Shown here: positions 1,293 to 24,764 of the stretch, piece by piece
How the letters are laid out: each line of letters starts with the position of its first letter
Numbering within the stretch: the first letter of the stretch is position 1
Source: a virus
Reading direction: 5' to 3' (one strand)
DNA: 41,634 nt
Virus record (IMG/VR): IMGVR_UViG_3300008062_000001
Span: 1 to 41,634 of that record
Program-made: the position numbers and the translations under genes
Notes under the pieces: model-generated
What the model saw: the letters and a program-made list of their open reading frames with translations, nothing else
The model's database searches: none
Told to the model about the DNA's origin: nothing

Positions 1293-1481
1293 ATTTCTTG
1301 AGAAAAAAGTAAAAATATTTCTTGAGAAACAATGGAAACAATTATTGTTTCTCCGTAATCAATTCAAAATAAGGACTTTACAAGCCAAATTCAAGGGCGA
1401 GAAACAATATAAACAATAATTCCCTATAAGTCTTATGGCGTTATTTACTCTTTTTTATATCCTATAAAGGCTATAATTACT

Positions 1482-1525
1482 AAATAAAAGGTTTTATAAT
1501 ATTATTGTTTACATTGTTTACAGGA
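1482..1525. repeat. 44-bp duplicated array core, copy A
   Basis: Identical over 44 bp to 24124-24167. It consists of an AT-rich half (AAATAAAAGGTTTTATAATA) and two direct copies of ATTGTTTAC. A shared TATCCTATA lies a short way upstream in both copies, so the two intergenic regions share a common origin or function. Confidence 0.95.
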
Positions 1526-1559
1526 GATGTAAGTCTAGTGGAAACCAGGTACTTGGCGC

Positions 1560-1598
1560 GTAAACAATCATTGTTTACGATTGTTTCTATTGTTTCTC
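1560..1598. repeat. ATTGTTT repeat cluster at the end of the late operon
   Basis: A 19-nt palindrome (GTAAACAAT-C-ATTGTTTAC, 1560-1578) is followed by GATTGTTTCT and ATTGTTTCTC. The same palindrome is found at 24324-24342 and a near copy of the whole block at 24199-24238. The block runs into the TGA of the 1597-2157 gene, so it would also be transcribed as a hairpin just after that gene. Confidence 0.85.
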
Positions 1599-2157
1599 AA
1601 AACTTGACACTGACCTGGAGCTCTACCCCTTTTTGTTTAAAATCAGTCAAATATTTAAGACCAAAACCAGTATTATTGTAATATGCGCCAGCCCCTAGGC
1701 CGAAGTAGCCAAGGGTATTTACAGACGAAAGAATAAAAGGCTCAAAGACCCTTTTCTGTGTTATTGTAGTCTGCTTATGTATAGGCGTAAAAGAGTAGCC
1801 AAAATACTGCAGCTTATTATATTGTACTTGTGCTTCAAAAGAAAAGCTACCTAGGGTGTCATTATCAAATAAAATTTCCTGATAATAGTTCTTTTTAATA
1901 TAATCGGCTATTATTTGAGCTGTATCAACAACCTGGGCAATATAGGTTGTATCGCCTGATAGCTTAATTGTATCTGGTTTTAATGGCAAAACAGGGTTAG
2001 CTGGTATTTCAACCTTATATGGAACTGAATACGGTATTGAATCATGCACCTTTATTCCGGGTAAATACTCTATTTTGATTTTCTGGGGCAAAGTCCATCG
2101 ACCCAGAATCACGCCCAGGATTAAAATCGTAATCAATATCAAGATATTCTTCTTCAT
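1597..2157 (-). CDS. Membrane-anchored protein with beta-rich C-terminus (DUF6808-like; spanin candidate)
   Basis: A 186-aa protein. Residues 3-20 are a strongly hydrophobic helix (NILILITILILGVILG) preceded by two lysines: a signal anchor with the rest in the periplasm. A Pro-rich stretch follows (YSVPYKVEIPANPVLPLKPD). The C-terminal 60 residues read like outer-membrane beta strands (NTLGYFGLGAGAYYNNTGFG...) and the protein ends in Phe, as outer-membrane barrels do. It resembles DUF6808 proteins of Bacteroides phages, a match I make from memory. It is the last gene of the late operon, behind holin and amidase, so a one-piece spanin-like role bridging inner and outer membranes is a reasonable inference, not an identification. 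Confidence 0.75.
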   Translation of the reverse strand: MKKNILILITILILGVILGRWTLPQKIKIEYLPGIKVHDSIPYSVPYKVEIPANPVLPLKPDTIKLSGDTTYIAQVVDTAQIIADYIKKNYYQEILFDNDTLGSFSFEAQVQYNKLQYFGYSFTPIHKQTTITQKRVFEPFILSSVNTLGYFGLGAGAYYNNTGFGLKYLTDFKQKGVELQVSVKF

Positions 2158-2177
2158 CTTATATCTTATGAGTTTTT

Positions 2178-2204
2178 AAAAGAAAAGGCCTCGATATGGG
2201 CCTT
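2178..2204 (-). terminator. Hairpin with T-rich tail after amidase
   Basis: AAGGCC / GGCCTT arms (2204-2199 and 2190-2185) with an 8-nt loop, followed on the minus strand by TTCTTTT. It overlaps the amidase stop codon. Probably a partial terminator, since the spanin-like gene begins 46 bp further on. Confidence 0.5.
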
Positions 2205-2775
2205 AAATGGACTCCAAAATTCTGACTATCCCTTTAATATGAAAATCAGCAATTCTTTTACGACCAATTTCACTCATGATGAATCTACAATCTGATTCAG
2301 TGTCCATGAAAAAATTCTCAGTTAAAATAGCTGGGTGCTTAGTGTGTTTTAAAATATAAAAAGCTGCTTCTTTATCTGGGTCATTGTCAGATAAATCTTT
2401 GCGCATTCTAAATTCAGATAATTCTTTTTGAGCTTCTTCAAATAGGATAGTGGCTAAAGGGTCTGCTTTAGTGTCTCCAGGACTTGTAAAAACTTCAAAG
2501 CCTGTTCCACAGCCAGCATTGGCATGAATGCTTATCAAGATAGCGTTTGAATAATAGTTAACCCTGGAACATCTCTTTGAAAGTGAAATATCAATTTCTT
2601 CGGGTACCAGAATTTTATGGTTAATATTCAAATCAACCAAAGCTTTAGCAATCCTTTTTACAATATCACGGTTAAATTCAAATTCAAATAGCTGTGTTCC
2701 ATCGTCCCATTTAGGGCTTCTTTTACCAGGTGTATTAATGCCATGGCCATTATCGAGAAGTATTATTGGTTTCAT
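2203..2775 (-). CDS. N-acetylmuramoyl-L-alanine amidase (endolysin, Amidase_3)
   Basis: A 190-aa zinc amidase that cuts the bond between muramic acid and the peptide stem of peptidoglycan at lysis. Starting at the ATG at 2775, residues 4-12 are IILLDNGHG with the first zinc ligand His11. A glutamate ligand is in LFEFEFN (Glu31 or Glu33), the second His is His84 in ISIHANAG, and the catalytic Glu is Glu153 in ILTENFFMD. This set matches Amidase_3. A longer frame upstream begins with TTG and has no family similarity, so I reject it. There is no signal peptide, so export depends on the holin. The start overlaps the holin gene by 26 bp. Confidence 0.92.
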   Translation of the reverse strand: MKPIILLDNGHGINTPGKRSPKWDDGTQLFEFEFNRDIVKRIAKALVDLNINHKILVPEEIDISLSKRCSRVNYYSNAILISIHANAGCGTGFEVFTSPGDTKADPLATILFEEAQKELSEFRMRKDLSDNDPDKEAAFYILKHTKHPAILTENFFMDTESDCRFIMSEIGRKRIADFHIKGIVRILESI

Positions 2776-3259
2776 CTTTGTTGGTTTTAAAAAGTTGTGA
2801 AATAAGAACTCTAGCATTGAGTTTATTCTTCCAAATATTTTCAGCATTTTCAAGTATAGATTTAAAGTAAACTCCTATGATATAAAAGACTAAAGTGCTA
2901 TGCATATAATGAGCAACATGCTCTTCAGCCTGACCTTTATATTGGTGAGTTAAAGCATTCAAGGCCAGGAGCAATGTAAACCAAACAAGAATCATCACAC
3001 CAAACCTTTGCATTCTTCTACTTGTTAATTTTCTGCCTTTTAATTTTGCTGCGGTTAAACCAGTAATCAGTTCAACTAAAAGCAATATAAACAAAGCCGT
3101 AAACATAAAGGGCTTTAATCCGAAAGCGTATTCTACACCAGCACCAATCATACTAATTGATGCAAGCATAGGAGCAGACTTTGGCCGCCAGAGACTCGCT
3201 AATAAGTCCTGGTGGCCACAAAATCCGATAGCTGAAAATAAGCGTTCCATTTTATTCAT
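2750..3259 (-). CDS. Holin (phage_holin_4 type)
   Basis: A 169-aa membrane protein. Hydrophobic helices are visible at about residues 30-47, 51-70 (FMFTALFILLLVELITGL), 88-104 (VMILVWFTLLLALNAL) and 120-135 (STLVFYIIGVYFKS). The motif ELITGLTAAKLKGRKLTSRRMQRFG between helices two and three is typical of the Bacteroidetes/Firmicutes phage_holin_4 family. It would form lesions in the inner membrane that let the amidase reach the cell wall. It lies between the tail fibre and the amidase genes in a standard lysis cassette. The soluble C-terminal tail of about 30 residues is basic and overlaps the amidase gene. Confidence 0.85.
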   Translation of the reverse strand: MNKMERLFSAIGFCGHQDLLASLWRPKSAPMLASISMIGAGVEYAFGLKPFMFTALFILLLVELITGLTAAKLKGRKLTSRRMQRFGVMILVWFTLLLALNALTHQYKGQAEEHVAHYMHSTLVFYIIGVYFKSILENAENIWKNKLNARVLISQLFKTNKDETNNTSR

Positions 3260-3260
3260 A

Positions 3261-5285
3261 TTATATACCTAGTTCTTTTTCAAATACTCCGTCATTTATC
3301 AATTCATCAAAACACAAACTATCCGCGTGCGTTGCAACAATTTCTTTATATGATATATAACCGCCCGCCGCCTTAATAGCATTTACAATTTCCATGTATT
3401 TAGCCGTACCTCCGAAGTCAACTGTAAATGTTGAATCATCATTTCCAACAACAATATAAATCTTAGGAAATCCAAACTTGTAAACAGTACCCGAAACATT
3501 TACTAAACCTAAATCATACCAATCATAGCCTTGAATAAATTGTTCTAAATTAGCATCATCAGCACCTCCAGCATCCATCCCGTAAGAATTTCTTATTGGC
3601 TCTTGTCTGCTTGCGCCGCCATTTGCAAAAATGTAACTTAAATCAGGAACGGGACCACAAAGAAACGCGGCTGTAATTGGAAAAGGTTTATTATACATCA
3701 ATTGTCCCGCGATTAATCCACCCATACTAGTGCAATTTAGAATGATATTAGGACTTAAGTTAAAGTTATCCATTGCGTATTTATACAATGCAATATACCT
3801 TTGTAAATGCACGTAATTTCCCCACCCGCTTGCATTTGTTGTGAATGGTGCGGCTGTTTCATCCTGACCCTGTGTTGATATAATTGCAATATTGTTTGCC
3901 TTACAGAAAGCTAACCAATTTACAGAACCTTGATAAGCGTAACTTTGCCCGTTTCCATGACAAAACAAAACGCAATAAGACGGTTTCCCATTAGTCACAT
4001 AATCATTCGGCGTACTTATGCGCGAATCAACACCGTTAACTTGAAAATCCAAAGTCACAGAACCTTCAATTTCAACACTTCCGGCATTTCTCAATAAATT
4101 AATATCAAATTTAAAATTTTCAACATCAAACCCGTCCGGCGGGTTTGTAACACCTGAAGGCATTTTTGCGAAATCTAAAGTTATTTGCACCGTTATTCCA
4201 GACGAATTTTGTTCACTCAACGTAACCGTATCAATTTGCCTTCCACCTTGCGGAGTTGGAAATATATAACTTGGGTTTGCATCCCACAACGCAACCTTTG
4301 TTCCTATGACACCAGTTGAAGTATCATACTCATAAACACCTATAAAATTTCTTGTTCCGTCATCCGCGATTCTGCATTGACCAATCGCATAGTCCTTAGC
4401 AACATCAACACTTCCGAACACCTTAATTTTTAAAATTGCTTCTTTAAATTCTGGAACAATATCAAACGTATTTGAACGGTTCCAAATCATTGATTCCGCT
4501 TGCGGTATTAAAGAAGGAACTTCTTCAGCCCTAACATAATCATCAATTTTATTTTCATCAAATACCCTTGAACTTAAACCAGCTTTTACATAAGATTGCA
4601 CTCCCCACGCTTCACCCAATGGAATAGCTGACCAATCAACAAGCATTTTCGCACTTGTCACACCAGCAAACAAATTCGTGAATTCAATTTCTTCAATTAT
4701 TCTTCCATTTACCGGACTTGGTTCAACATGCGAACCTTCCAACCATTGCGCAATTACACCATTTCCAGCAACACTATCATCCTTCACGTCATTTTCATCA
4801 AAAACAACCAACCTTATATAATGACCCTGACTTCCGTCACGCTCAAATGTGAACGGTGCAACACGCCAATTTTTATTGCCCCCTTTAATTTCCACATCAA
4901 TTATGGCATTCTGGATTCCTGGCTCTTCTCCTTCAAAAGTTGCATTTCTCTGAAATGGATAACCTACAGACCCGCTTGAAGCAGTAATTAATTCCTTTAC
5001 CCAGGTTGTACCATTCCAAAGTAGAATTGCTATCTCTCCTTGTTCTATCTCGATAGCAGAAAAATTCGAGTATGTTCCTTGCTCAGAAGCCATGTAAAAT
5101 ATAGAACCGTCTGGGGTTCCTGGATTTGTACTCGTTGTAGCAATACCTGCATAGGTTGCATTTTCCCCAACATTATCAACTATAGAAAATAATGTTTGTT
5201 GCAAATTAGTTCCTGTTATTTCTTGGTTTCCATTTGCTTTAACTATAGCAGCAATAGCCGCTTTTAAATCTGTCCAAAGTGCCAT
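3261..5285 (-). CDS. Tail fibre/receptor-binding protein with C-terminal alpha/beta-hydrolase (esterase) domain
   Basis: A 674-aa protein. Residues 1-100 (MALWTDLKAAIAAIVKANGN...) resemble the attachment part of other Bacteroidetes phage tail proteins. Residues 120-430 contain two successive beta-rich blocks with similar elements (RNATFEGEEPGIQNAIIDVE and RSNTFDIVPEFKEAILKIKV). Residues 436-674 form an alpha/beta-hydrolase: oxyanion HGNG at 443-446, nucleophile Ser520 in CTSMGG (a GxSxG variant), acid Asp616/617 in VVGNDDS, and His653 in ATHADS. A likely role is de-esterification (for example de-acetylation) of a surface polysaccharide during adsorption; the substrate is unknown. It is the most distal tail gene, next to the lysis genes. 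Confidence 0.85.
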   Translation of the reverse strand: MALWTDLKAAIAAIVKANGNQEITGTNLQQTLFSIVDNVGENATYAGIATTSTNPGTPDGSIFYMASEQGTYSNFSAIEIEQGEIAILLWNGTTWVKELITASSGSVGYPFQRNATFEGEEPGIQNAIIDVEIKGGNKNWRVAPFTFERDGSQGHYIRLVVFDENDVKDDSVAGNGVIAQWLEGSHVEPSPVNGRIIEEIEFTNLFAGVTSAKMLVDWSAIPLGEAWGVQSYVKAGLSSRVFDENKIDDYVRAEEVPSLIPQAESMIWNRSNTFDIVPEFKEAILKIKVFGSVDVAKDYAIGQCRIADDGTRNFIGVYEYDTSTGVIGTKVALWDANPSYIFPTPQGGRQIDTVTLSEQNSSGITVQITLDFAKMPSGVTNPPDGFDVENFKFDINLLRNAGSVEIEGSVTLDFQVNGVDSRISTPNDYVTNGKPSYCVLFCHGNGQSYAYQGSVNWLAFCKANNIAIISTQGQDETAAPFTTNASGWGNYVHLQRYIALYKYAMDNFNLSPNIILNCTSMGGLIAGQLMYNKPFPITAAFLCGPVPDLSYIFANGGASRQEPIRNSYGMDAGGADDANLEQFIQGYDWYDLGLVNVSGTVYKFGFPKIYIVVGNDDSTFTVDFGGTAKYMEIVNAIKAAGGYISYKEIVATHADSLCFDELINDGVFEKELGI

Positions 5286-5287
5286 AT

Positions 5288-6145
5288 TTATGAATTATTA
5301 AAGTCATTATTAAAGTCATTATTAAAATCACCATTATCTGCTGGAGTAAAGCCTCTGCCAATTTTCTTGATTACAGTATCACACTGGAACTCGGCCTCAA
5401 CAGCGGCAACATACCCCCCATCCTGCCATTTGGGTGTCATTAGAAAAGTATCAACATCATAGTTGTCCCCTTTATTTGTTATATATACACTATCAGTCAT
5501 TCGAATAATGCGCATAGCGTCGCATAAGTATTCAGGAGCTATAAAATTAAACTTAAACGTTTTCTCGCTTATTTGTTTTTCTACGAATGTATAACCATCC
5601 CTATTTTCTACCTGCTCTTCAAATTCATAATCCGGCCGACCTAGTTGAGTTGATAAATAAACATTGAATCTAAAACCCTCTGAGTAGTCTATTCTACCAC
5701 CTTCAAATATTAAACTTTCAGAATCCCCGTATTCAATCTTAAAACAACTGCTTAAATCTCTAACTATCGTAAATACTTCACTATACCATATTTCTACACC
5801 ATCTGAAATCTCAATATAATACTGACCTTCTGGAGTGTTTATAGCCATCGGTAAAATTCCAGGATATAAAATCACGTCATAACCGCTAGATTCATATCTG
5901 TTAATTTTTAAGCCTGTATAGTTCATTTCGTTTCTAATAGTTGAGACTAACACCCCATCTACTTTTCGCAAATATACGTAACTGATGGCATTCGTTCTAG
6001 TAGTTCTAATTATTTGAAAAGGTAATATTTTCCTATCAGGAGTAAGTAATGGGTATATTTCTCCGAAAGCGTAATCCTTCCTGTGATTCTGCTTGGAAAC
6101 ATCCAAGTAAAAGGGCAATATGGATAAATTATTATTCGGTATCAT
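5288..6145 (-). CDS. Tail protein, hypothetical, with DFNN repeat tail
   Basis: A 285-aa protein between the tail-tip protein and the tail fibre, so probably part of the tail tip or baseplate. It is rich in beta-strand-like segments and aromatic residues (for example YAFGEIYPLLTPDRKILPFQ, and GQYYIEISDGVEIWYSEVFT at about residues 107-126). The last 17 residues are four copies of DFNN (GDFNNDFNNDFNNDFNNS), coded by near-identical 12-bp units. Similar short Asp/Asn repeats occur in the 14041-15390 protein (GDFDGDFSDDYDSD). It starts inside the end of the preceding gene (14-bp overlap) and stops 2 bp before the fibre gene. I do not recognise a named family. Confidence 0.75.
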   Translation of the reverse strand: MIPNNNLSILPFYLDVSKQNHRKDYAFGEIYPLLTPDRKILPFQIIRTTRTNAISYVYLRKVDGVLVSTIRNEMNYTGLKINRYESSGYDVILYPGILPMAINTPEGQYYIEISDGVEIWYSEVFTIVRDLSSCFKIEYGDSESLIFEGGRIDYSEGFRFNVYLSTQLGRPDYEFEEQVENRDGYTFVEKQISEKTFKFNFIAPEYLCDAMRIIRMTDSVYITNKGDNYDVDTFLMTPKWQDGGYVAAVEAEFQCDTVIKKIGRGFTPADNGDFNNDFNNDFNNS

Positions 6146-13038: not shown

Positions 13039-13040
13039 GC

Positions 13041-15447: not shown

Positions 15448-15475
15448 AAATATTCAACTTTAAAACCAAAAGCTA

Positions 15476-16582
15476 CTAAGGTACTTCTTGAGTATATACA
15501 GGTGAAGTTGTTGGATTCACAATTTGAACTGGTTGTCCATAACCATCTCCAGATTCTACAGCTAATGCCATAATTGGATTGGCAATAGTGGTTAAATCAC
15601 TGTTATAAGGAGTTACAAATGCAACATCAACAGCAAAACCATAATGCTCTTTACGGGCACGAGTTAAATCAGCAGTTGAAGCTCCACCGATAGCAGAGAA
15701 ATCCCCTTTACTTTCGTAGAAATAAGTTCCACAAGGGAAGTTAATCATAGGCAGTGTATCAATACCCCAAGCTGTTCCGTCAGCCATTTGAGTGTTAAGC
15801 AATGACTCACGCTCAAAACGAGTTAATACACCAACAGAACCGCCATTTACAGCATACATATTTCCATATTCACCGGCAGCATTTGCAACACGTGTTGAGA
15901 AGTGGAGAATCTTATCGGAATATTCCAATGTTTTGTTCTCGATGTTGTAAAGGTCTTTCTGAGCCAACTTGCGAATAATACTTTCAACACCAGCATTACC
16001 TAAAAGGTGGATGTCGCTGAAATGGTCATTGGCTGCCATCATAGGATTGATGTCCCCAATTACATTCTCACGAGCAAACCAAGGTGCGATAATCTTATTA
16101 CCTGTTTCTGTATAGCTCAATAAATCTCCAAAAACTTGCGTTTTTGCAGCAGAAAGAGCAGCAATTGCAGCAGAATCAAGAGTTTCAGCAAACTTGTATA
16201 AATACTTATTGAACTTGCGTTCAAAGTCAGCTTGCATTGAAATCTCATTGTTCATATACATTGCAGGTACAATCGTGAAGCCCCAAGCATAAGTAGCGAA
16301 AGTGATTTGAAACATCTGAGATGTATTCTCATCATCTGCAATAGTTACAGTTCGAGTATTTCCGATTGTTACGCCAGCATCATAGTCGATAACAGGTGTT
16401 TCCAATACATTACCAATTGACGTTTCAGCTTTTTGTTTAAGCTCTGGCGTCAAGATACCAGATGGGTCGTCAGACTGCATCATGAATAAATTCAACCCTC
16501 CGTAACGGCTTGGGCGTAATTCGTTTTTATCCAAATTACTTTTAGCTCTGACATTCTGAATACGAGTGTTAATCAATGACAT
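15476..16582 (-). CDS. Major capsid protein (HK97-fold type)
   Basis: A 368-aa protein in the standard place after the scaffold. Features fit major capsid proteins of Bacteroidetes siphoviruses: a charged N-arm (RIQNVRAKSNLDKNELRPSR), a spine-helix-like segment (NNEISMQADFERKFNKYLYK, about residues 112-131), and the beta-rich A-domain with GNAGVESIIRKLAQ and PMINFPCGTYFYES. It carries no protease or delta domain, and the separate scaffold gene upstream fits this. It is flanked by terminators on both sides (16650-16679 and 15415-15447), so it may be made from its own transcript in large amounts. Confidence 0.85.
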   Translation of the reverse strand: MSLINTRIQNVRAKSNLDKNELRPSRYGGLNLFMMQSDDPSGILTPELKQKAETSIGNVLETPVIDYDAGVTIGNTRTVTIADDENTSQMFQITFATYAWGFTIVPAMYMNNEISMQADFERKFNKYLYKFAETLDSAAIAALSAAKTQVFGDLLSYTETGNKIIAPWFARENVIGDINPMMAANDHFSDIHLLGNAGVESIIRKLAQKDLYNIENKTLEYSDKILHFSTRVANAAGEYGNMYAVNGGSVGVLTRFERESLLNTQMADGTAWGIDTLPMINFPCGTYFYESKGDFSAIGGASTADLTRARKEHYGFAVDVAFVTPYNSDLTTIANPIMALAVESGDGYGQPVQIVNPTTSPVYTQEVP

Positions 16583-16649
16583 AACTATAAAATTTTAGTT
16601 TTTACAAATAAATTACGTGTTACCCTTGCACGTTACTTTTCTTACCAGC

Positions 16650-16679
16650 AAAACCCAGGCTCTCGAAAGAAACCTGGGT
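16650..16679 (-). terminator. Terminator with UUCG-type tetraloop
   Basis: ACCCAGG and CCTGGGT form a 7-bp stem. Inside, TCT and AGA extend it to a TTCG tetraloop, a very stable hairpin cap. A short T run (four) follows. It lies 26 bp after the stop of the membrane protein gene and before the capsid leader. Confidence 0.75.
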
Positions 16680-16704
16680 ACTCCTTTTAAAGGATATTGC
16701 TAAA

Positions 16705-17109
16705 TTACTTCTTTTTTATAAACAAAGTAAAAATCCATTGAATTATTTTCGTATCAGCTATACCATTTGCAGCTAAAGAGGCTCCGAAGCCGTACATTAA
16801 AGCGTAATACCATTCAATATCAATTAAGAAACCTAGTTTAAACCACCACCCAAACATAGTTAGTAATATACCGATTACCCAGGACACAAATTGTACAAGG
16901 AATTTTGGTGTACTTTCGTTAAACTTAAATAGCTTCTTTATAAATTCTACTACAACTGGTATGGCAGCAACGAGTGCAGCAAAAGTTGTAAAGAAATCAG
17001 TAAACTCGTTGACAGTCACAGCTGCACCCGTTACCTCCTGGGCAAGTAATGTTACTGATGAAACAAGCATCAACGCAAAGACCATAAGAAATTTCAAAAG
17101 TGTTTTCAT
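16705..17109 (-). CDS. Multi-pass membrane protein with signal peptide (holin-like), in capsid cluster
   Basis: A 134-aa protein with a clear signal peptide: basic start MKTLLK, hydrophobic core FLMVFALMLVSSVTLL and a likely signal peptidase site after LLAQ (about residue 24). It then has helices at about 38-58 (FTTFAALVAAIPVVVEFIK), 71-92 (LVQFVSWVIGILLTMFGWW) and 97-118, and ends in KKK. Its size and layout resemble small holins, but a better holin exists at 2750-3259. It is isolated between two terminators, among scaffold and capsid genes, which is an odd place for a membrane protein. Possible roles are a second holin/pinholin, an envelope modifier or an exclusion factor; none is proven. 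Confidence 0.75.
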   Translation of the reverse strand: MKTLLKFLMVFALMLVSSVTLLAQEVTGAAVTVNEFTDFFTTFAALVAAIPVVVEFIKKLFKFNESTPKFLVQFVSWVIGILLTMFGWWFKLGFLIDIEWYYALMYGFGASLAANGIADTKIIQWIFTLFIKKK

Positions 17110-17133
17110 TTTTATTATTTTTAGTTTGTTATT

Positions 17134-17163
17134 AAAAAAGCAGCATCTTTGAGATACCGCTTT
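17134..17163 (-). terminator. Rho-independent terminator after scaffold gene
   Basis: An 11-bp stem, AAAGCGGTATC with GATGCTGCTTT (two G-T wobbles, loop TCAAA), is followed by six T residues on the minus strand. It starts 4 bp after the scaffold stop. Confidence 0.9.
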
Positions 17164-17166
17164 GAT

Positions 17167-18108
17167 TTATCGGATTGGTAGTTTATCAACGCCGTTATCA
17201 GCCCTTAATTTCTTCTGCTTATCAGCAAAAGACTGTGAGCCTCGTGTTTCACCTTGTTGCATCAAATACTTTGTTATGATGTCGTCAGCTTCAACCTGGT
17301 TTTTGGCTCCAGCAATATCAACTATTTCAATAGTATCTTTGCCATCATCTGGATTAGAGCTACCTGTTCCAGTTGCTTTTTTACCAGGGTCAAGTACGTC
17401 TTTCAATTGTTCAGTGATAAGTTCTTGAGCCGTATAAGGATTCAAAGCATTGTTCTTATTTCTAAGAATCTCGCCTTTATCGTCTCTAAATACCATAACT
17501 TTCTTGCCGTCAGCTTCGACCCAATCAGGTTTATACTGGTCTAAGATACCATCTTTAGCCGATTTAAGAAGTGTTTGCTGAACTCCTTCAGGATAACCTG
17601 CTTTGAACTTCAAAGCTGATGTAGCTTTACCAAATTCAGAATTAACCTGAATACCGGTGATTTTTGAATTGAACTCACCTTTTTCTTTTTCCCAATTTGA
17701 TTTATCAGTGTCATACTGAGTTTGCAACTGGGTTAATTTACCTTGTGCATCCTTCAATTGCTGAGCTACAACTTCGTTTCCTTTACCGTCACCGATTTGT
17801 TGCTTAAGTGTAGAAATTTCAGTTTCATAACCAGTAATCTTTGTTTGCAAGTCAGCTGAGCCCGCAATTTGGGTTTTAAAATCCCCGAGAACGCGCTTAG
17901 CGTAATCATAGCTTTTTTCGCCTTGATTCTTTTCTACTCCGGATATTTCCTTTATATCTCGGTCGTAAGCGCCATGTAACTCGCCTACTTTTGCACCTAT
18001 GACAGTGTTCTCGTCGTTTACTGACAATGTTGATATTGCCGCAACTTGGTCGTCTGTCAATTCTGATAGCGATTCGTTCGCCTTAATAACTTCTGGTGTT
18101 AATGCCAT
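17167..18108 (-). CDS. Capsid scaffolding protein
   Basis: A 313-aa protein between the portal and capsid genes. Residues 85-155 are a long coiled coil (DLQTKITGYETEISTLKQQI ... GKLTQLQTQYDTDKSNWEKE), the hallmark of scaffolds such as phage GP20-type proteins. The C-terminal part (about 230-313) is charged and ends with KQKKLRADNGVDKLPIR, a basic tail that could bind the capsid shell. It would template procapsid assembly and then leave or be degraded; no protease is encoded nearby. The start ATG is clear and the gene is followed by a strong terminator. Confidence 0.8.
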   Translation of the reverse strand: MALTPEVIKANESLSELTDDQVAAISTLSVNDENTVIGAKVGELHGAYDRDIKEISGVEKNQGEKSYDYAKRVLGDFKTQIAGSADLQTKITGYETEISTLKQQIGDGKGNEVVAQQLKDAQGKLTQLQTQYDTDKSNWEKEKGEFNSKITGIQVNSEFGKATSALKFKAGYPEGVQQTLLKSAKDGILDQYKPDWVEADGKKVMVFRDDKGEILRNKNNALNPYTAQELITEQLKDVLDPGKKATGTGSSNPDDGKDTIEIVDIAGAKNQVEADDIITKYLMQQGETRGSQSFADKQKKLRADNGVDKLPIR

Positions 18109-18142
18109 AATTTTGTCCCTTTAAATTATAGGTTTAAAAAAA

Positions 18143-18490
18143 TTAGTTTGAATATTTAGTTGGGTCCCACATAACTTTGGTCTCGAACCCTAAACCTTTT
18201 GAGTTCTTTTGAAAGTGATTCCACTCAGGGATTGTATACTTTTGGATGAAAGCTTTTGAAAGCTTCTTACCTGTTTTCTTGTCAAAAAGAGGCTTATCCA
18301 TTTGAACATGGAAAATACCACGCTCTTTTTCAGCGGGTAAATAAGTACCTGATTGAGCCGCTTTAATGCGAGCTTTTTCATCAGCCTCAGCTTTCTTCTT
18401 AGCTGCTTCAGCTTCCTTCTTAGCTGCTTCAGCTTCCTTGGCCGCTTGCTCCTGGGCCAGTTGTTCCGGTGTTTTCTTGGTCTCTGACAT
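18143..18490 (-). CDS. Hypothetical protein with Ala/Lys/Glu coiled coil
   Basis: A 115-aa protein. Residues 8-46 are a charged helix with near repeats (KEAEAAKKEAEAAKKKAEAD) coded by near-identical 21-bp segments. The second half is a small domain (GIFHVQMDKPLFDKKTGKKL ... WNHFQKNSKGLGFETKVMWD) with the look of a structural protein. The start overlaps the portal gene by 62 bp in another frame, so the two are translationally linked. Placed between portal and scaffold, it may be a minor head protein; I do not recognise the family. Confidence 0.65.
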   Translation of the reverse strand: MSETKKTPEQLAQEQAAKEAEAAKKEAEAAKKKAEADEKARIKAAQSGTYLPAEKERGIFHVQMDKPLFDKKTGKKLSKAFIQKYTIPEWNHFQKNSKGLGFETKVMWDPTKYSN

Positions 18491-20177
18491 ACTCTTTGAA
18501 TTTTTCAGTTATAATATTTATTTTTTTATCAAAATCAAGCTGAGAACCAAATTCAATGATGTTGGTGTTCTCTCGCTCGAACCGTTCAACAAATGTAGGA
18601 AAATTAATTTTAATTTTAAGTGAATCTAAATTTAAAAGTTCCTTCTCATTCAACTTTAATAGCTCATCTAAGGTATAATGCCTATACGGCTCAAGTTGTT
18701 TCAATATAAGCATCCTTTGTAGCTGTATGGGATTATTCCGGTGCTCTGTGGCTAGAATGTTGCTATTAATAGCATCGAGCTCAGCCTCACTAGCGCCATT
18801 CTCTTTCGCTTGCTTATATTGCGCATACAAATCATCAACAGAATAAATATAGAACTCAGTGCCCATACTTATTGAACTGCTAATAAAATTATCACCATAT
18901 CGTAAGGCACAAATAGTATCATCAGCAAACTTTTGGGCCGCTTCTAAGTTACCTTTAAGATTGTTCAGCACACTAGTACGACTCTCAAAGTTAGCTGTAA
19001 CTTGCATCTCATTAATGCTTTGTTTCTGTTGTACGTCACCACCCATTCCGATAGAAGCTGTGAGAATCTCAGCAGCAACTCTTTTAACCTCTTCAACATT
19101 ATAATCTAATGACGATTTGTCGATAGTAGTTATTTGAACGGGGTTCCTTAAATCTGGGTCGTCACCAGTTGGAACAGGTACCTCAATAAATGAGCCTACT
19201 CCAGCTAATCTCTTCTGAGCACAAACTGGACACGTTTCAATTGTACCATTCCTAAGCACTTTATAGTTCTGGTTGGTATCTCTTAAATAACCACCATCGC
19301 AATAATCCCCCGTTTCATTATTCTCAAAATCACAATCAGCCTCATAAGATGAATAAATTGGGTAGGGTGCATACAAATCCAGGTGGCGCTTGCTTATTGA
19401 AAAGAATAGTAACCAATCAAGATTAGATAACTGTGGAGACAATGGTGACTTCTTAAGGTCTGGCTGTTTTTGATTCAATTCAGTGGACCAGAAGAATCTT
19501 GCTGGGCAAAAACCTAAATCATGTTCAGTTTCAACGATGGGTTCTACCGGTAACTCATTGTCTTTGGTCAATTGAAATACACGGTAATATTTATCATCAA
19601 ATACAGCGACTCTATTCCCTGGTTGCTTAAACATGATATATTCAAGCTCTGAGGATGTCTTCAATTTATAATCGATTACATTCTCTATAGATAACCAATA
19701 GAAATAAGGCTCTGGATATTCAGTAGTTTGTTCCTGTGGTAAATCTATAATAAGAACTGAGTTAATAGCTGTTTTTACAGCGTCCCAACCCTTTTTACGC
19801 CACACTAGAGGTTCTTTTAAAACGTCTTTACGATATGCTTCCCAATCGTCTCTATATTCCGAGTCTGTAAACTGGAAGTTAGACACTGGGTTGCGCCCAT
19901 CAAACACACGTTCTAATTCACTGAAGATAGTTCCAGTTAGTTGGATGTTAGGTGTTGGAAATTTGAATAAGCTGACAAAAATGTTGTACTTATCTTTTGG
20001 GATTAGAGTCCTAACCCACTCAAGAAAAGTGGTCAACGGTTGAGAAATCTCAGAAGGCTCCATAAAGCTTTCGACATGAAAGCGTATTCTGCTTTCATGT
20101 CGTACTGCTTTACTTATTACTTGAGTTTTCTTCGGACTTTTTATCAGTTCTTTTATTTCGCTTACTAGTAAGGCCAT
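18429..20177 (-). CDS. Portal protein with zinc-finger-like insert
   Basis: A 582-aa protein, the DNA-entry ring at one capsid vertex. Its N-terminus (IKELIKSPKKTQVISKAVRH) and clip/stem region fit portals of Bacteroidetes siphoviruses. Residues 282-319 carry four Cys (C282, C293, C316, C319, the last two as CPVC), which suggests a zinc-binding loop after YAPYPIYSSYEADC. The helical stem-like part follows (ILTASIGMGGDVQQKQSINE, NLKGNLEAAQKFADDTICAL). The first ATG is at 20177 and overlaps the preceding gene by 68 bp. A later start at residue 39 (position 20063) would remove the overlap, but the conserved-looking N-terminus argues for the long form. Confidence 0.85.
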   Translation of the reverse strand: MALLVSEIKELIKSPKKTQVISKAVRHESRIRFHVESFMEPSEISQPLTTFLEWVRTLIPKDKYNIFVSLFKFPTPNIQLTGTIFSELERVFDGRNPVSNFQFTDSEYRDDWEAYRKDVLKEPLVWRKKGWDAVKTAINSVLIIDLPQEQTTEYPEPYFYWLSIENVIDYKLKTSSELEYIMFKQPGNRVAVFDDKYYRVFQLTKDNELPVEPIVETEHDLGFCPARFFWSTELNQKQPDLKKSPLSPQLSNLDWLLFFSISKRHLDLYAPYPIYSSYEADCDFENNETGDYCDGGYLRDTNQNYKVLRNGTIETCPVCAQKRLAGVGSFIEVPVPTGDDPDLRNPVQITTIDKSSLDYNVEEVKRVAAEILTASIGMGGDVQQKQSINEMQVTANFESRTSVLNNLKGNLEAAQKFADDTICALRYGDNFISSSISMGTEFYIYSVDDLYAQYKQAKENGASEAELDAINSNILATEHRNNPIQLQRMLILKQLEPYRHYTLDELLKLNEKELLNLDSLKIKINFPTFVERFERENTNIIEFGSQLDFDKKINIITEKFKEYVRDQENTGTTGPGASGQGS

Positions 20178-20328
20178 TCACTTTGTCTAATTGCAAGTTT
20201 GAATCACTTGGCAGCTCCCAACCACCATTATTTGGCATACGCAAAATGCGCTCAGCGTGATTAACTTCAAATTCTTGAGTCTTGTCCCCACACTGAAGAA
20301 CAACACTGTTGGTCCCTTTTTTTTCCAT
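20110..20328 (-). CDS. Small hypothetical protein of head cluster
   Basis: A 72-aa protein: an N-terminal part with strand-like segments (NSVVLQCGDKTQEFEVNHAE), RILRMPNNGGWELP, and a basic, Ser/Asn-rich tail (KRNKRTDKKSEENSSNK). The pattern NHAE-x-IL ... GWxLP is, as far as I recall, common in small phage proteins beside portals of this group. It starts 3 bp after the preceding stop and its end lies within the first 23 codons of the portal gene. Function unknown. Confidence 0.65.
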   Translation of the reverse strand: MEKKGTNSVVLQCGDKTQEFEVNHAERILRMPNNGGWELPSDSNLQLDKVNGLTSKRNKRTDKKSEENSSNK

Positions 20329-20330
20329 GA

Positions 20331-20972
20331 TTATGGAGTTACAAGGTCAGTAAGAGCGTTGAAGTCCGTTGGAGTGATAATTTTCAAGTTATCAGACCAG
20401 TTCGGGTAGAAGCTCCAAGAAATAACGTTCATATCAGGTGTCTCAAGGCCGCCGAGAACTTTATCACCTACAAACAGGCCATTAATTGGAATAGGATAGT
20501 ATTCGGTTGGAGTTGTTGCATCATCTGCAATCATTCCAATACGTCCATATTCATCAATCAAATAAACACCAACATTCTCACACTGGTATTCTTTAAGCGC
20601 TTTAATGGTCTCCTGGTTGCTTCTCAGGATGTTTGCTGTAAAGGTTGAAGGCTCACGACCGATAACCAATTCAATTCCGCCCAAAGTCTCGTTTCCGCCA
20701 CCATAAGTACGTGCCGCCCCAGCCTCATTGGTTGGTGCTTGTATAAATGGTGATTGTACAACTTTAGTTCCATCAGCAGCAGCCAGTAAAGGCGTCCAGC
20801 TTGCAAGAACGTCAGGTGCGTTAGTAGCTATTACAAATGCGTTTTTAGTACTACCAGTAGAATAAATTCTCTGAAATACAACTTTCTGAATTTGCCCAAA
20901 TTCTTCAGGACATTCGCTGATAGGTACGTCGCCAATGGCGGCAGCAGCAGGACAATTACAAAGTAAACCCAT
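20331..20972 (-). CDS. Structural protein, hypothetical (tail-tube-like size and composition)
   Basis: A 213-aa, Thr/Pro/Gly-rich, beta-like protein with its own promoter candidate (21008-21015), as expected for a highly expressed virion protein. It begins MGLLCNCPAAAAIGDVPISE and contains VVFQRIYSTGSTKNAF and IELVIGREPSTFTANIL. It ends with a strand pair (ETPDMNVISWSFYPNWSDNL). The size and beta content would fit a major tail tube or decoration protein. Its place between terminase and portal is not the usual one for a tail tube, so the role stays open. Confidence 0.65.
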   Translation of the reverse strand: MGLLCNCPAAAAIGDVPISECPEEFGQIQKVVFQRIYSTGSTKNAFVIATNAPDVLASWTPLLAAADGTKVVQSPFIQAPTNEAGAARTYGGGNETLGGIELVIGREPSTFTANILRSNQETIKALKEYQCENVGVYLIDEYGRIGMIADDATTPTEYYPIPINGLFVGDKVLGGLETPDMNVISWSFYPNWSDNLKIITPTDFNALTDLVTP

Positions 20973-21007
20973 GATATTAATTTTTTAAATTAGACATTTT
21001 ATCATTG

Positions 21008-21015
21008 CAAATATA
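21008..21015 (-). promoter_or_regulatory. Putative promoter -7 box for 213-aa virion protein
   Basis: TATATTTG is an exact match to the Bacteroidetes -7 consensus TAnnTTTG, 36 nt before the ATG at 20972. No clear TTG at -33. Confidence 0.45.
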
Positions 21016-21027
21016 TAAACTTTTTTA

Positions 21028-22053
21028 TTAAGGTTGGCCGATGGCGTCTAAAAAGGCCTGTGAGAACTTGCTTTCATCGACCAAACGAATATCAAATGCG
21101 GCCCAGACGCCCATTGTTGTACTAACTTCTTCTACTTCAATTTTTATATCAGTTAAAGCTGGTATAATATCCGGGAAGGTTCTTACATCTTGGTAAGCTC
21201 CTTGCGCTACCATAACAGTAACACGTTTCTTAGTAGTGAATACTTTACCAAATCTACGGCTCTTGTATAAGAATCTAGCATACTCAGCTATAGCTGCAGC
21301 ATTGCCTTCTTCTTCAATTCCTAATTCACCTCTATATAAGTAGCCGACTTTTCCTTTTGGGATAGTATAAATAGCCATTAAAGTCTGCTGATTAGATGGA
21401 GTAGCTATAGCTCTAACTGCTACTGAAGCAGGAACACCATTCGTTGGTGTTGGGTCCAAATGGCAATACACTGTACCGGTGAACTCAGTTGAATTAGCAT
21501 TTGACAATCTGTAAACTCTCCAAAGTGGAGTAGTGAGATTCACGTTATTCTGGCCATTTAAAGCAATCTCTTGTTCAACTTCATTGCCGTCTATATCCAA
21601 ACCAAGAACAGTTATTGTTTGATTATCGGCCGTCTCTGATGAACTTAAATAAAGTATTGGGGCTGTTCCATCAGCATCATATTGATATAAACCACCGTGC
21701 TCCCAAACATCTTCGGGGTCTGTGCCTGTAGTTATCTCTGGGTTAGCTCCAAACTTATCTTGTGTATCAAAGCCAGCCGTTTGTCCATGTATAGGCTTAT
21801 AACCATCATTAGACTGACGTTTCTCAAAGAATAATTTAGTTGCTTTTCTAAACTCCGCAGCGTCTTGATACTTATCGCCTGTAGCATTCTTGTCAATCGA
21901 AGTTAAGTCTGTGAAGTCGTCTAGGCGCTCGCCAGTTTGGACACCTAAGATAGTAACATAGTTACCGTCTTGGCCTAAAATGTAGATACCTGAAGGGCAA
22001 ACAGAGCCGTTCAATATCCAGTCATTTCCTGATTTGTATAATGATGTTATCAT
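21028..22053 (-). CDS. Structural protein, hypothetical (fibre or decoration-like)
   Basis: A 341-aa protein directly after the large terminase. The N-terminal third starts MITSLYKSGNDWILNGSVCP and includes KATKLFFEKRQSNDGYKPIH. From about residue 130 it is beta-rich and Thr-rich (ADNQTITVLGLDIDGNEVEQ, NSTEFTGTVYCHLDPTPTNG). The C-terminus (RTFPDIIPALTDIKIEVEEV ... GVWAAFDIRLVDESK) looks like a beta-sandwich seen in phage virion proteins of marine Bacteroidetes phages. It may decorate the head or form a fibre. A perfect -7 box lies just upstream. Confidence 0.6.
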   Translation of the reverse strand: MITSLYKSGNDWILNGSVCPSGIYILGQDGNYVTILGVQTGERLDDFTDLTSIDKNATGDKYQDAAEFRKATKLFFEKRQSNDGYKPIHGQTAGFDTQDKFGANPEITTGTDPEDVWEHGGLYQYDADGTAPILYLSSSETADNQTITVLGLDIDGNEVEQEIALNGQNNVNLTTPLWRVYRLSNANSTEFTGTVYCHLDPTPTNGVPASVAVRAIATPSNQQTLMAIYTIPKGKVGYLYRGELGIEEEGNAAAIAEYARFLYKSRRFGKVFTTKKRVTVMVAQGAYQDVRTFPDIIPALTDIKIEVEEVSTTMGVWAAFDIRLVDESKFSQAFLDAIGQP

Positions 22054-22073
22054 ATCAAGCGATTTTTATAAAA

Positions 22074-22081
22074 CAAAAGTA
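22074..22081 (-). promoter_or_regulatory. Putative promoter -7 box for 341-aa virion protein
   Basis: TACTTTTG, an exact TAnnTTTG match, 20 nt before the ATG at 22053; the same octamer as in front of the HTH gene. The expected -33 box falls inside the terminase gene and is not obvious. Confidence 0.45.
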
Positions 22082-22093
22082 GGTTAAAATTTT

Positions 22094-23272
22094 TTAGTTT
22101 CGTCTTTTTAACCCCCTTTTTTGTTTCGTCTTACTCAATTTAGCTGTAGCAAGATACCTCATTGCGTCAATACAATGGTTGAATGCGTCAATAGCTTTAT
22201 TCAAGGCTTTACCAGTTTTATCCTTATCCCAAGCATACTTACGCAGCTCTTTAATAAGGTTAGTACTTCGCTTAGTGACGTAGAACTCATCTTGCTGGAG
22301 TATATCGATACCAAAGTTAACGGAGTCTTTACCTTTGACAGCTGGCCTAATATTAAAACCATGTTGGTTAATCTCTGTTATAGATTTGGGTTCAGCTGAA
22401 TCAGCAACAACAAAATCAGTGCGCTTGATTCCATGGTGCTTCATTAGCCTGGCTATGTCTCCATTAGTTAAACCGGTCTGATAAACTAATTCGTCCCATA
22501 TTACTTTGCCATTCCATTTATAGGCTGCGGTTATAGTTGTTGGGTCATTTGTAAAACCAAAGTCAATAGTATAACCTATTAGCTTGGCTTCAGCCGGTAC
22601 CCGGTCAATCAATTTCCAGTTATCAAATATGACGCCTTCTAATTTACCTATCAAGCCTAGGCCGTATACTTTCCACCAGTTTTCCCAATATGATGAGGTC
22701 TTGGCTTTCTCCCAGGCCTTCTCTATTTCCTTTATAATCGAATCTGAGAGGGCTTCGTTATCTTTATAAGTTAATATCAACCATTCGGCATCCTCATCAT
22801 CCTGGAGCTCCTCATGAACCCAGAATGTATTTGACGGGTTGAAGTCAAGCCAAATTGTCTGGTCTGTTCTAATAGCTAATTGGTGATAAGTCTGGAATGA
22901 AATATTATTGCACTCATTTATGTATAGTATATTTCTACGGGGTCCCCGAACCTTGTCCTCCTGGTCAGCTGAAAAGAACTCGATATAAGAGCCGTTAGTG
23001 AACGTATACGTTAATAAGGTCTTATTGTAGTTAGTATCAATCCAGCGGCCTGTGGCCTTCATAATCTTTATGAAATCTTTCAACGCCCCTTTACGTAAAT
23101 GTGGTACCGTCTCAGATACTACTGATATTTCCAGTAGCGGCGTTTTGATAGCTGTATCAATAAGAATAGGCAGTATGCCAAAGGTCTTACCTGCTGACGT
23201 ACCACCTGGAACTACTCGAATGCGCTTCTTTAGCTTTCGAAGTTTTTTTATGGCTGTTGTATACTTAAACAT
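22094..23272 (-). CDS. terL: Terminase large subunit (PBSX/Terminase_3 type)
   Basis: A 392-aa packaging motor and nuclease. The ATPase part has Walker A at residues 23-30 (GGTSAGKT) and Walker B at 114-120 (ILYINEC). The RNase-H-like nuclease has its acids at Asp237 (IDFGFTNDP), Asp291 (VVADSAEPKS) and Asp369 (HCIDAMRY). This is the Terminase_3 pattern of PBSX-like phages, many of which package by headful; that fits the circular permutation suggested by the ends. It begins directly after the small subunit stop (TAA-ATG), so the two are co-translated. The C-terminus is basic (KTKQKRGLKRRN). Confidence 0.95.
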   Translation of the reverse strand: MFKYTTAIKKLRKLKKRIRVVPGGTSAGKTFGILPILIDTAIKTPLLEISVVSETVPHLRKGALKDFIKIMKATGRWIDTNYNKTLLTYTFTNGSYIEFFSADQEDKVRGPRRNILYINECNNISFQTYHQLAIRTDQTIWLDFNPSNTFWVHEELQDDEDAEWLILTYKDNEALSDSIIKEIEKAWEKAKTSSYWENWWKVYGLGLIGKLEGVIFDNWKLIDRVPAEAKLIGYTIDFGFTNDPTTITAAYKWNGKVIWDELVYQTGLTNGDIARLMKHHGIKRTDFVVADSAEPKSITEINQHGFNIRPAVKGKDSVNFGIDILQQDEFYVTKRSTNLIKELRKYAWDKDKTGKALNKAIDAFNHCIDAMRYLATAKLSKTKQKRGLKRRN

Positions 23273-23830
23273 TTATTCGTTTGAATCATCTCCAAATAAA
23301 GGCTGCTCGGCTCTAGTTGTAACATCAACTTTGTCTGGTGCATTCCAACCCATTGCTTTGAAAATATCCTGAATAGCTAATCTCTTATCATACAGCTTGA
23401 TTTTTACATACTCAACTTCAATAAGTTCGTCATTCATATTCTTGACTTCGGTCTTAGTGCTTATCTCCTGTATGGCTGCTAAGATTTGAGGGTTGTCTTT
23501 TTTCAAAGCCTCAAAGTCTTCCCTTTTTATCCAGTCAGTATAGAAGTCAGCAATATTAGAGGTAGCTAAAACCTTGAGGTCTTTCAATAATCCAATTTTT
23601 GAAATTCCGACGGCTTTAGCCACATCTTCTTTGATAATCTCTATATACTCCTGAATGTTAGCTTTCATAAGTAGCTTAGCCCCGGCCACGTTAGCCCCTT
23701 TCGGGCTGTAACCGGCATCTCTAACCGCTCGGCTAGCGTTCCAATCCACAATATACTCATGACAGAAAATCTGTTGCTTTGCATTTAGTTCCTGCTCTAA
23801 TTCTTGCCTTCTTTTAGCTGTTGAATCCAT
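23273..23830 (-). CDS. terS: Terminase small subunit (Terminase_2)
   Basis: A 185-aa DNA-recognition subunit. The N-terminal segment LNAKQQIFCHEYIVDWNASR AVRDAGY is the classical Terminase_2 helix-turn-helix (residues 18-50), followed by a central oligomerisation region (GISKIGLLKDLKVLATSNIA) and an acidic end (PLFGDDSNE). I chose the ATG at 23830 because the longer frame upstream only translates the repeat array into a Phe/Leu-rich string. The array and late promoter sit just before it, so the protein may bind its pac site there or in the flanking coding region. Confidence 0.9.
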   Translation of the reverse strand: MDSTAKRRQELEQELNAKQQIFCHEYIVDWNASRAVRDAGYSPKGANVAGAKLLMKANIQEYIEIIKEDVAKAVGISKIGLLKDLKVLATSNIADFYTDWIKREDFEALKKDNPQILAAIQEISTKTEVKNMNDELIEVEYVKIKLYDKRLAIQDIFKAMGWNAPDKVDVTTRAEQPLFGDDSNE

Positions 23831-23849
23831 ATCGAATATTTTTATTTTA

Positions 23850-23878
23850 CGAAGATAATAAAACCCTCTGAGAAACAA
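23850..23878 (-). promoter_or_regulatory. Putative late promoter upstream of terminase genes
   Basis: On the minus strand, TTG (23878-23876), 18 nt, then TATCTTCG (23857-23850): a match to the Bacteroidetes promoter TTG-N17-23-TAnnTTTG/TTCG. The TTG is part of the last ATTGTTTCTC repeat unit, so a protein bound to the repeats could block or recruit RNA polymerase here. The terminase ATG is 20 nt downstream. Confidence 0.65.
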
Positions 23879-23921
23879 TAATGGAAACAATAATGGAAAC
23901 AATAGAAACAATGATTGTTTC
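23870..23921. repeat. AAACAAT direct repeats and palindrome next to the late promoter
   Basis: Four AAACAAT copies in a row (GAGAAACAAT, then ATGGAAACAAT twice, then AGAAACAAT), the last forming the 17-nt palindrome GAAACAATGATTGTTTC. Copies are spaced 11-12, 12 and 9 bp apart, close to one helical turn for the first three. Confidence 0.85.
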
Positions 23922-23958
23922 CCGCTAAATATTTGGTTACCAAGTTATTATGGACGCA

Positions 23959-23990
23959 GGGTAAACAATAAAAAAGTCTATTGTTTACCC
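23959..23990. repeat. 12-bp-stem inverted repeat in array B
   Basis: GGGTAAACAATA and TATTGTTTACCC are perfect inverted copies around an 8-nt A-rich centre. The same design with GAGAAACAATA is found at 24359-24387. Confidence 0.9.
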
Positions 23991-24123
23991 ATAAAACCTT
24001 TATACCCAAATAGTTAGGCCTCAAAAACTCAAAATGTAAACAAAAAAGAGGCCCAAACTTTCTCTGGTCCTATATTATAATAAATATATGTAATTTCTAT
24101 ATATCCTATATTCCATATTTATC

Positions 24124-24167
24124 AAATAAAAGGTTTTATAATATTATTGTTTACATTGTTTACAGGA
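24124..24167. repeat. 44-bp duplicated array core, copy B
   Basis: Identical to 1482-1525 over 44 bp: AT-rich half followed by two direct ATTGTTTAC copies. It is the longest exact shared block between the two inter-module regions. Confidence 0.95.
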
Positions 24168-24198
24168 TATTCGGGGCCCTGGGTCTCAACCACTTAAC

Positions 24199-24238
24199 CG
24201 AGAAACAATCATTGTTTACCATTGTTTCTATTGTTTCC
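24199..24238. repeat. Four-copy ATTGTTT block
   Basis: GAGAAACAAT, then ATTGTTTAC, ATTGTTTCT and ATTGTTTCC in sequence, the first two forming an inverted pair with a single C between. It closely resembles 1560-1598. Confidence 0.85.
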
Positions 24239-24323
24239 AAAAAGTCCAATCGAAAGTTTGCCTCTTTTATTGTTTACATTGTTTACACCTGGCCCTGGGC
24301 CTTGGCCTTCAATGACTTGAGTT

Positions 24324-24387
24324 GTAAACAATCATTGTTTACCATTGTTTACACGCTGGAGAAACAATAAAAAATCTATTGTTTCTC
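24324..24387. repeat. Palindrome and hairpin following the HNH gene
   Basis: GTAAACAATCATTGTTTAC (24324-24342), another ATTGTTTAC copy, then the perfect 11-bp inverted repeat GAGAAACAATA/TATTGTTTCTC (24359-24369 and 24377-24387), which touches the HNH stop codon. As RNA this last one is a strong hairpin but has no T run after it, so it is not a standard terminator. Confidence 0.85.
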
Positions 24388-24764
24388 TAAAAAGGTACCT
24401 CAGAACAACCCTTTTTGGCATTCTGCCGGTTAGTTAAGAATTGTATATTATCTAGCGAGTAGCCTTTATTATTATCAACGCGGTCAATTGTATATAATTT
24501 ACCTCTTTTACCCTTTTCAATAATATAACCAGTATCTGCACAGAATTGCCTGAACTCTTTCAGTGTAATATTAAAAGCTTTGCCTCGCGTCTTTGCATTA
24601 TTCTTAAACTGATGAAACCTGGCATAAACAGGGTCCTCTTCTCGACGTTTGCGAGCAAAATGCTTATGGCATAAACCCCCTTTTCGGGCTATCGGCACAT
24701 TTGTACAGTTATAAGCACAGCAATATTTGCCCTGTTTTTTTTTGTTTTCGCTTATATGGAACAT
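24387..24764 (-). CDS. HNH endonuclease with zinc-binding N-terminus
   Basis: A 125-aa protein. Residues 15-35 carry Cys/His pairs (YCCAYNC ... LCHKH) that probably bind zinc. The nuclease core is YTIDRVDNNKGYSLDNIQFL (91-110) followed by TNRQNAKKG, the DRxDNxxGY...N form of HNH enzymes common in phages. The first HNH histidine is replaced by Asp-Arg, as in that subfamily. It could be a free-standing homing nuclease or the HNH partner that stimulates terminase cutting in cos phages (HK97 gp74-like); it lies just before the terminase genes but in the preceding operon. The gene end abuts repeat array B. Confidence 0.85.
   Translation of the reverse strand: MFHISENKKKQGKYCCAYNCTNVPIARKGGLCHKHFARKRREEDPVYARFHQFKNNAKTRGKAFNITLKEFRQFCADTGYIIEKGKRGKLYTIDRVDNNKGYSLDNIQFLTNRQNAKKGCSEVPF

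Follow-up and report, generated by a model that had tools for sequence, protein, structure and literature searches.

What acts on two arrays of one short repeated word that stand at the only two module borders of a viral genome? We addressed this in a stretch of 41,634 nucleotides (IMG/VR virus record IMGVR_UViG_3300008062_000001, positions 1 to 41,634; 'the window' hereafter means this whole stretch). Here the heptamer ATTGTTT occurs 42 times on the two strands: 11 times in array 1 (the 'early' array; 1327-1595), 20 times in array 2 (the 'late' array; 23873-24384) and 11 times elsewhere, the arrays together holding 31 of the 42. On sequence evidence, we consider it highly probable that these arrays are iteron-type replication origins served by the VapE-type primase-helicase that the window encodes.

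A sequence-only reading of the window had described about 10 and about 20 words, and our counts bear this out: the words are not scattered at random, ATTGTTTAC (14 of 14 window copies), ATTGTTTCT (11 of 11) and ATTGTTTCC (5 of 5) lie exclusively inside the arrays, and the densest 550 bp hold 20 ATTGTTT words (mean 2.2, maximum 4 in 200 Markov-resampled windows). The 44-bp identity that it reported is the longest stretch common to both arrays, and its 19-nt palindrome has copies at 1560 and 24324. Minus-strand open reading frames end at 1597 and 24387, placing the start of each array where a module's last gene stops, as had been claimed. Since nearly all called coding sequence lies on the minus strand (38.4 kb vs 1.1 kb on the other), each array precedes the first gene of a module, and the two arrays account for every module border in the genome. 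The next genes, denV and terminase, were also named correctly for the window; in several relatives the helix-turn-helix (HTH) gene (206-619 in the window) follows the early array directly, with no denV between. The array features are as follows.

1325-1597, minus strand: array 1 (early), 11 ATTGTTT words, before the replication module
1400-1417, minus strand: array 1, inverted word pair, beyond the AT-rich tract
1420-1503, no strand: array 1, AT-rich tract, putative unwinding element (79% AT over the 80 nt used)
1504-1521, minus strand: array 1, tandem pair GTAAACAATGTAAACAAT with 9-bp period, adjoining the AT-rich tract
1560-1578, no strand: array 1, palindrome GTAAACAATCATTGTTTAC
23871-24386, minus strand: array 2 (late), 20 ATTGTTT words, before the terminase small subunit gene (terS)
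24063-24145, no strand: array 2, AT-rich tract (84% AT over the 80 nt used)
24146-24163, minus strand: array 2, tandem pair GTAAACAATGTAAACAAT, adjoining the AT-rich tract
24269-24286, minus strand: array 2, second tandem pair
24324-24342, no strand: array 2, palindrome identical to 1560-1578

Anatomy and conservation of the arrays

Each array shows the anatomy of an iteron origin, namely words, a 9-bp tandem pair (GTAAACAAT)2, an AT-rich tract and inverted words. Judged by eye and read in gene direction, most arrays run from inverted words and a palindrome GTAAACAATnATTGTTTAC, across some tens of bases, to the GTAAACAATGTAAACAAT direct pair, then an AT-rich tract of ~80-100 bp, an inverted word pair, further words and the first gene; several have a terminator-like hairpin at the upstream end. 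This order was common, again by eye, to most of 20 arrays in 11 genomes; among the exceptions (genomes carry handles in G, loci in L), the early array of G005 is degenerate, and the early array of G013 and G006 depart in the tandem pair. Early arrays with the full anatomy were found in the window, G004, G017, G024, G028 and the Elizabethkingia phage TCUEAP1. Two measures disagree on whether the arrays of one genome evolve in concert. By gapped identity of the AT core, an array's nearest match was its own partner in 0 of 12 genomes (some cores were mis-placed, e.g. G004 late and G026 late); by longest exact shared stretch, the own partner was best or tied best in 11 of 15.

The isolated Croceibacter phage P2559Y has arrays at 42880-43095 plus 1-190 and at 23627-23870, preceding terS and the HTH gene, thus at the same two borders and with the same words as the window. 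Many diverged phages carry arrays of like anatomy before terS and before the replication module; pattern scans returned 25 and 74 stretches of viral sequence, many of which hold dense clusters. From one set of 16 contigs we took 9 whole (the other 7 being short fragments or without a dense array), and from a further set 15 of 29. Among 24 genomes of the VapE lineage with the HTH gene that were viewed whole, several of the 24 being partial contigs, arrays stood at both borders in 15 (the window, P2559Y, G002, G004, G006, G007, G012, G013, G017, G024, G026, G028, G029, G032 and TCUEAP1). Those genomes that first came up through the palindrome or tandem pair form a sample biased towards arrays. 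Scans of G021, G022, G027 and G031 show a late array only, and the G001 contig stops before the HTH gene. G011 (L133) has a single array, at 16552-16879, between divergent terS and HTH genes, the usual layout having both in the same direction.

Loci found by the HTH gene, independently of arrays (n = 22, including the near-duplicates L217/L218 and L220/L221), carried a dense upstream array in 14 cases, a degenerate one in 3 (L213, L214, L215) and none in 5. A cluster here means 6 or more overlapping word hits upstream, and one site can count twice because the patterns overlap; without double counting, the 14 positive loci hold 5-12 words per 500 bp and the other 8 hold 1-6 (the 6 being the degenerate L214). 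Relatives with the same gene order carry arrays, though not all of them do. A scan that presupposed no word scored 102 hits across 28 genomes (1.13 Mb), and 16 when each genome was block-shuffled once; the arrays of G006, G011 and G042 and the early array of G002 were among those it failed to detect, and some of its hits lie in genes. Separately, the palindrome recurs on several contigs of Prevotella sp. UW_TS_PREV2_1 (L136, L138, L143-L146, L149, L150) amid many GTAAAAGA/TCTTTTAC-type short hairpins, apparently a family of interspersed repeats that has nothing to do with the arrays.

VapE as the candidate initiator

The arrays travel with a replication cassette, whose genes are listed here with those that flank the arrays.

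34939-37347, minus strand: VapE-type primase-helicase, proposed initiator (Pfam VapE-like, E 6.9e-81; phrog_256, nearly full length)
34939-35151, minus strand: C-terminal winged helix of VapE, residues ~733-802, proposed word reader (from model secondary structure and word covariation)
37351-39315, minus strand: DNA polymerase A (PolA), conserved replication cassette
39562-40110, minus strand: Enc34-type single-stranded DNA-binding protein (SSB), replication cassette
40202-41380, minus strand: DUF2800/PD-(D/E)XK exonuclease, replication cassette
206-619, minus strand: conserved small HTH-like protein whose gene heads the replication module
870-1238, minus strand: denV-like pyrimidine-dimer glycosylase, first gene after array 1 (Pyr_excise, E 1e-15)
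23273-23830, minus strand: terminase small subunit (TerS), first gene after array 2 (Terminase_2, E 2.8e-26)

Among 10 relatives compared, the exonuclease and SSB were found in 10 of 10, and VapE (59-68% identity), PolA and SNF2 in 9 of the 9 whose contigs cover the region. The window's terminase large subunit (TerL) had matches in 2 of 10. The cassette is kept while TerL mostly is not, which links the arrays to the replication cassette and not to the structural genes. Relatives by TerL were a poor guide to arrays (0 of 80 loci with >5 words in 600 bp).

The protein itself is of the PriRep type. VapE matches the Protein Data Bank entry 7pds ('PriRep1 with dsDNA') by profile (E 5.9e-120) and by fold (Z 35.3, root-mean-square deviation 3.7 over 429 residues, 34% identity, residues 367-802). 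In its structural model (mean predicted local distance difference test score 86.6), the last 60 residues form strand-helix-helix-strand-strand, as in a winged helix.

More distant VapE phages place like arrays beside vapE. In two VapE scans covering 65 loci (28 + 37), HTH homologues were found in 4 (L300-L303), where arrays, if present, lie elsewhere; the HTH-free outgroup VapEs that were aligned are 36-49% identical to the window's. Immediately 3' of vapE, a shuffle test supported an iteron array at 19 of the 28 first-scan loci and at 30 of the 33 HTH-free second-scan loci (30 of all 37, the 4 HTH loci being among the 7 without), many of the 30 being near-identical prophages. Two isolated phages, 3A and phiFL4A, have such an array too, as do L161, L197, L178 and L202 (VapE 41-46% identical; GTAAACA-type word), four loci picked because they hold the word. 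The word varies by VapE group (GGTAACAC, TTGGTAACA, ATGGACACA, GGTAGCA, GAACACA, GGACACA, GTAAACCAA, GATGCAACA, AAGGGACG, TGAAACCAG and others). No iterons were found 3' of vapE in L232, L233, L235-L239 and L256, whose origin presumably lies elsewhere.

Two phages within the lineage have a wholly different word. TCUEAP1 carries both arrays, both with TTGAGACA, and its VapE falls more than 4 standard deviations below expected identity only at 721-792 (z -4.2 to -7.0); after these, 73-108 is the lowest-scoring window (z -3.4), and 385-468 stays close to expectation (z 0.1 to -1.9). The other, G022 (L265; 18575-18868), has a late-position array of the unrelated word AGATCATA/TATGATCT and an otherwise lineage-typical VapE. 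We then compared word distance with local VapE distance over 7 segments, reducing 43 typed word/VapE pairs at 85% identity to 34 VapEs with 15 words. Residues 731-802 covaried with the word (partial r 0.41, p 0.0005), as did 341-470 (partial r 0.26-0.40, p 0.001-0.0035); 41-340 and 471-730 did not, and the same segments stood out when G022 was omitted. It is therefore likely, from these comparisons, that the C-terminal winged helix of VapE reads the word.

Several observations weigh against VapE as reader and the arrays as its origins. In G022 the strongest fall in VapE identity is at 385-468 (z to -11.8), with a moderate one at 733-792 (z -2.8 to -2.9), and a comparison of G022 with the window only, under another normalisation, picked out the same two regions; since the change is greatest at 385-468, this second region may matter, and a second contact there is possible. 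The words entering the covariation were assigned by eye, and when one main-clade member was kept (n = 19) residues 731-802 gave partial r 0.19 (p 0.034) and no other segment was significant. Iterons were lacking 3' of vapE in 9 of 28 first-scan loci (one of them, L259, holding just the start of vapE and so no downstream to score) and in 3 of 33 HTH-free second-scan loci. The window's own vapE is followed by the next genes without an intervening array, so that none lies 3' of it. G025 and Bacteroides phage BF486P2 encode both HTH and VapE, and no array was found in either. Finally, the origin check by coding-strand GC skew gave no reversal at either array in 4 genomes; the earlier suggestion of paired replication origins gains support from the sequence comparisons, not from skew. 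In the BF486P2 VapE, identity is low at the C-terminus (z -3.0 to -4.9), as it is in some windows of the N-terminal part (z to -6.8); the BF486P2 record (L337/L338) ends in a 4.5-kb stretch without annotation.

Mechanism, precedents and alternatives

In the mechanism that we propose, the VapE winged helix would bind the 9-bp word, and VapE would assemble on words either side of the AT-rich tract, melt it and load itself as the replicative helicase; the phage's PolA and SSB would make up the rest of the replisome. Ancestrally, the origin would probably have lain directly 3' of vapE and, in this lineage, been moved and duplicated to the heads of two operons.

Phage P4 alpha is a primase-helicase that binds GT-AACA-like iterons at two loci (ori and crr). 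Origins of phage-inducible chromosomal islands (PICIs) always have an AT-rich region with an iteron set on either side and lie immediately 3' of the rep/initiator gene (PMC6092414, which also names P4 alpha and its cognate ori site). The initiator in PICIs and Staphylococcus aureus pathogenicity islands (SaPIs) is a helicase, often primase-fused, with a C-terminal DNA-reading domain (PMC6092414, PMC7581432), and the SaPI Rep recognises downstream iterons through that domain (PMC7581432). The window resembles these systems in its VapE, a Pri-Rep-type initiator helicase matching PriRep1 7pds, and in iteron sets that flank an AT tract in each array; it differs in having two copies, at operon heads of an independent phage and neither 3' of vapE, a position found in most outgroup VapE phages, and because of that position we regard it as a novel variation on this known kind of origin. 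In Bacillus phage SPP1 (44-kb genome), two distant, like-organised origins, each of repeats and an AT-rich DNA unwinding element, are bound by gp38 (PMC6316719), and a switch to concatemer synthesis has been proposed when forks meet gp38 on oriR (PMC6316719, PMC3485210). The window shares two distant copies of one organisation. However, SPP1 oriL lies inside gene 38, whereas the window's vapE contains just two isolated ATTGTTT words (35954, 36314) and no ATTGTTTAC; gp38 acts as a distinct origin binder alongside a loader and a DnaB-family helicase; and the SPP1 origins are 12-13 kb apart with oriR within the late region. In the PLE satellite that parasitises ICP1, the DNA-binding domain of RepA covaries with the origin (PMC8263062), but that initiator is RepA_N-type and one origin is described. 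By analogy, the window arrays appear most like PICI origins in working and somewhat like SPP1 in layout. The sequence-only reading knew of no described system with this layout; a two-origin phage is described in SPP1, with another initiator and other positions, and our literature searches, with most subscription papers outside reach, found no description of twin VapE origins. The single-copy form of the origin is already known; the paired placement is new.

Does each copy work? That both fire we hold to be an even bet. The late array, before terS, is probably the main origin: it has more word hits than the early array in 8 of 8 genomes where both were scored, by a count in which overlapping patterns can score one site twice, and it is still present in genomes whose early array is weak. 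The smaller array before the replication module would then be a second origin or a fork barrier, compare the role proposed for SPP1 oriR. A stricter version, in which the late array alone is an origin and the early one a fork barrier or decaying duplicate, draws on those counts, on the degenerate early array of G005, on the late-only scans of G021 and G031 and on the SPP1 model as precedent (PMC6316719, PMC3485210); it must accommodate complete early anatomy in the window and the other genomes named above and a single word in both TCUEAP1 arrays, and we judge it a serious contender that falls somewhat short of even odds.

Other readers of the word fare worse. The arrays might be operators through which a phage transcription regulator (the HTH protein at 206-619 or another) switches early and late operons, the AT tract being promoter DNA. 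Each array ends upstream of a module's first gene, and the HTH gene is conserved and heads the replication module. In the 150 nt upstream of the first gene, TAnnTTTG, the -7 element of Bacteroidota promoters, is found on the coding strand in 22 of 32 cases and on the opposite strand in 6, whereas shuffles average 4.5 (maximum 12). Yet neither window start has an exact TAnnTTTG (near-matches only, by eye), VapE relatives with no detected HTH homologue have like arrays 3' of vapE, and of the 22 HTH loci above 5 lack an array and 3 have a degenerate one. HTH divergence does not follow the word either: G013 shares its word with the window but only 36% HTH identity, and G022, which has another word, shows 48%. 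We consider operators improbable, and the HTH protein, which had been suggested as the reader, is rejected as common reader, since arrays occur in phages where no homologue of it was found. The same suggestion had extended to TerS and a packaging (pac) site. The late array might be a pac or TerS-binding region and the early array a copy of it: TerS usually binds near its own gene, and the late array is upstream of terS wherever terS was identified. The window TerS, however, has no detectable similarity to any protein of P2559Y, a phage with identical words. The other array is far from terS, leaving the replication-module copy unexplained, and outgroup arrays adjoin vapE. TerS finds no support as common reader, and we rate this account very improbable. 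A host protein is just as improbable: many phages do share an identical word, but the word differs between VapE groups, and in a scan of genome contigs 1 of 20 stretches (L149) had at least 5 clustered ATTGTTT, amid interspersed short hairpins, so a host factor was rejected as well. Besides paired origins, what stands of the earlier proposal is that a phage-encoded protein binds the arrays, which the sequence comparisons support; the best candidate is VapE, which it had not named.

A broader role is speculative and, we think, unlikely, though less so than the operator account: the arrays might couple replication, transcription and genome mosaicism, with the initiator acting as replication switch, late-gene gate and module boundary. 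With the initiator on both operon heads, firing of the origin would open the late promoter adjoining terS, forks arrested at the partner array would start concatemer formation beside the packaging gene, and same-orientation homologous arrays would bound an exchangeable structural module.

VapE and the arrays provide a candidate initiator and origin for a group of little-studied phages. The group probably belongs to Bacteroidota hosts: isolated relatives infect Croceibacter, Elizabethkingia and Bacteroides, and hosts of the metagenomic members are assigned by inference. The 9-bp tandem pair, AT tract and inverted pair offer a signature for VapE-phage origins whatever the word, and the natural word/VapE series, which includes two swaps inside the lineage, allows a direct test of initiator specificity. 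The paired placement raises the question of why an origin is kept at each operon head.

Circularity and other window genes

The first and last 84 bases of the window are identical, being four copies of a 21-bp tandem unit within a gene; the repeats, at 1-99 and 41544-41634, encode EKPKATT units. A frame read across the junction stays open and both ends resemble the G004 homologue, which supports a circle; the circular join is plausible from sequence, the number of repeat units at it being unsure. With a circle assumed for 4 genomes (the window, G002 and G017 by end repeats, the window's and probably G002's being tandem units, and P2559Y as annotated), the arrays split the genome ~45-55%, which may reflect only module size. 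Rfam and tRNA scans of the window gave no matches, and 11 window proteins were scanned against family libraries. The last gene before array 2 (24387-24764) resembles HNH/endonuclease VII families (phrog_3322, E 1.8e-23).

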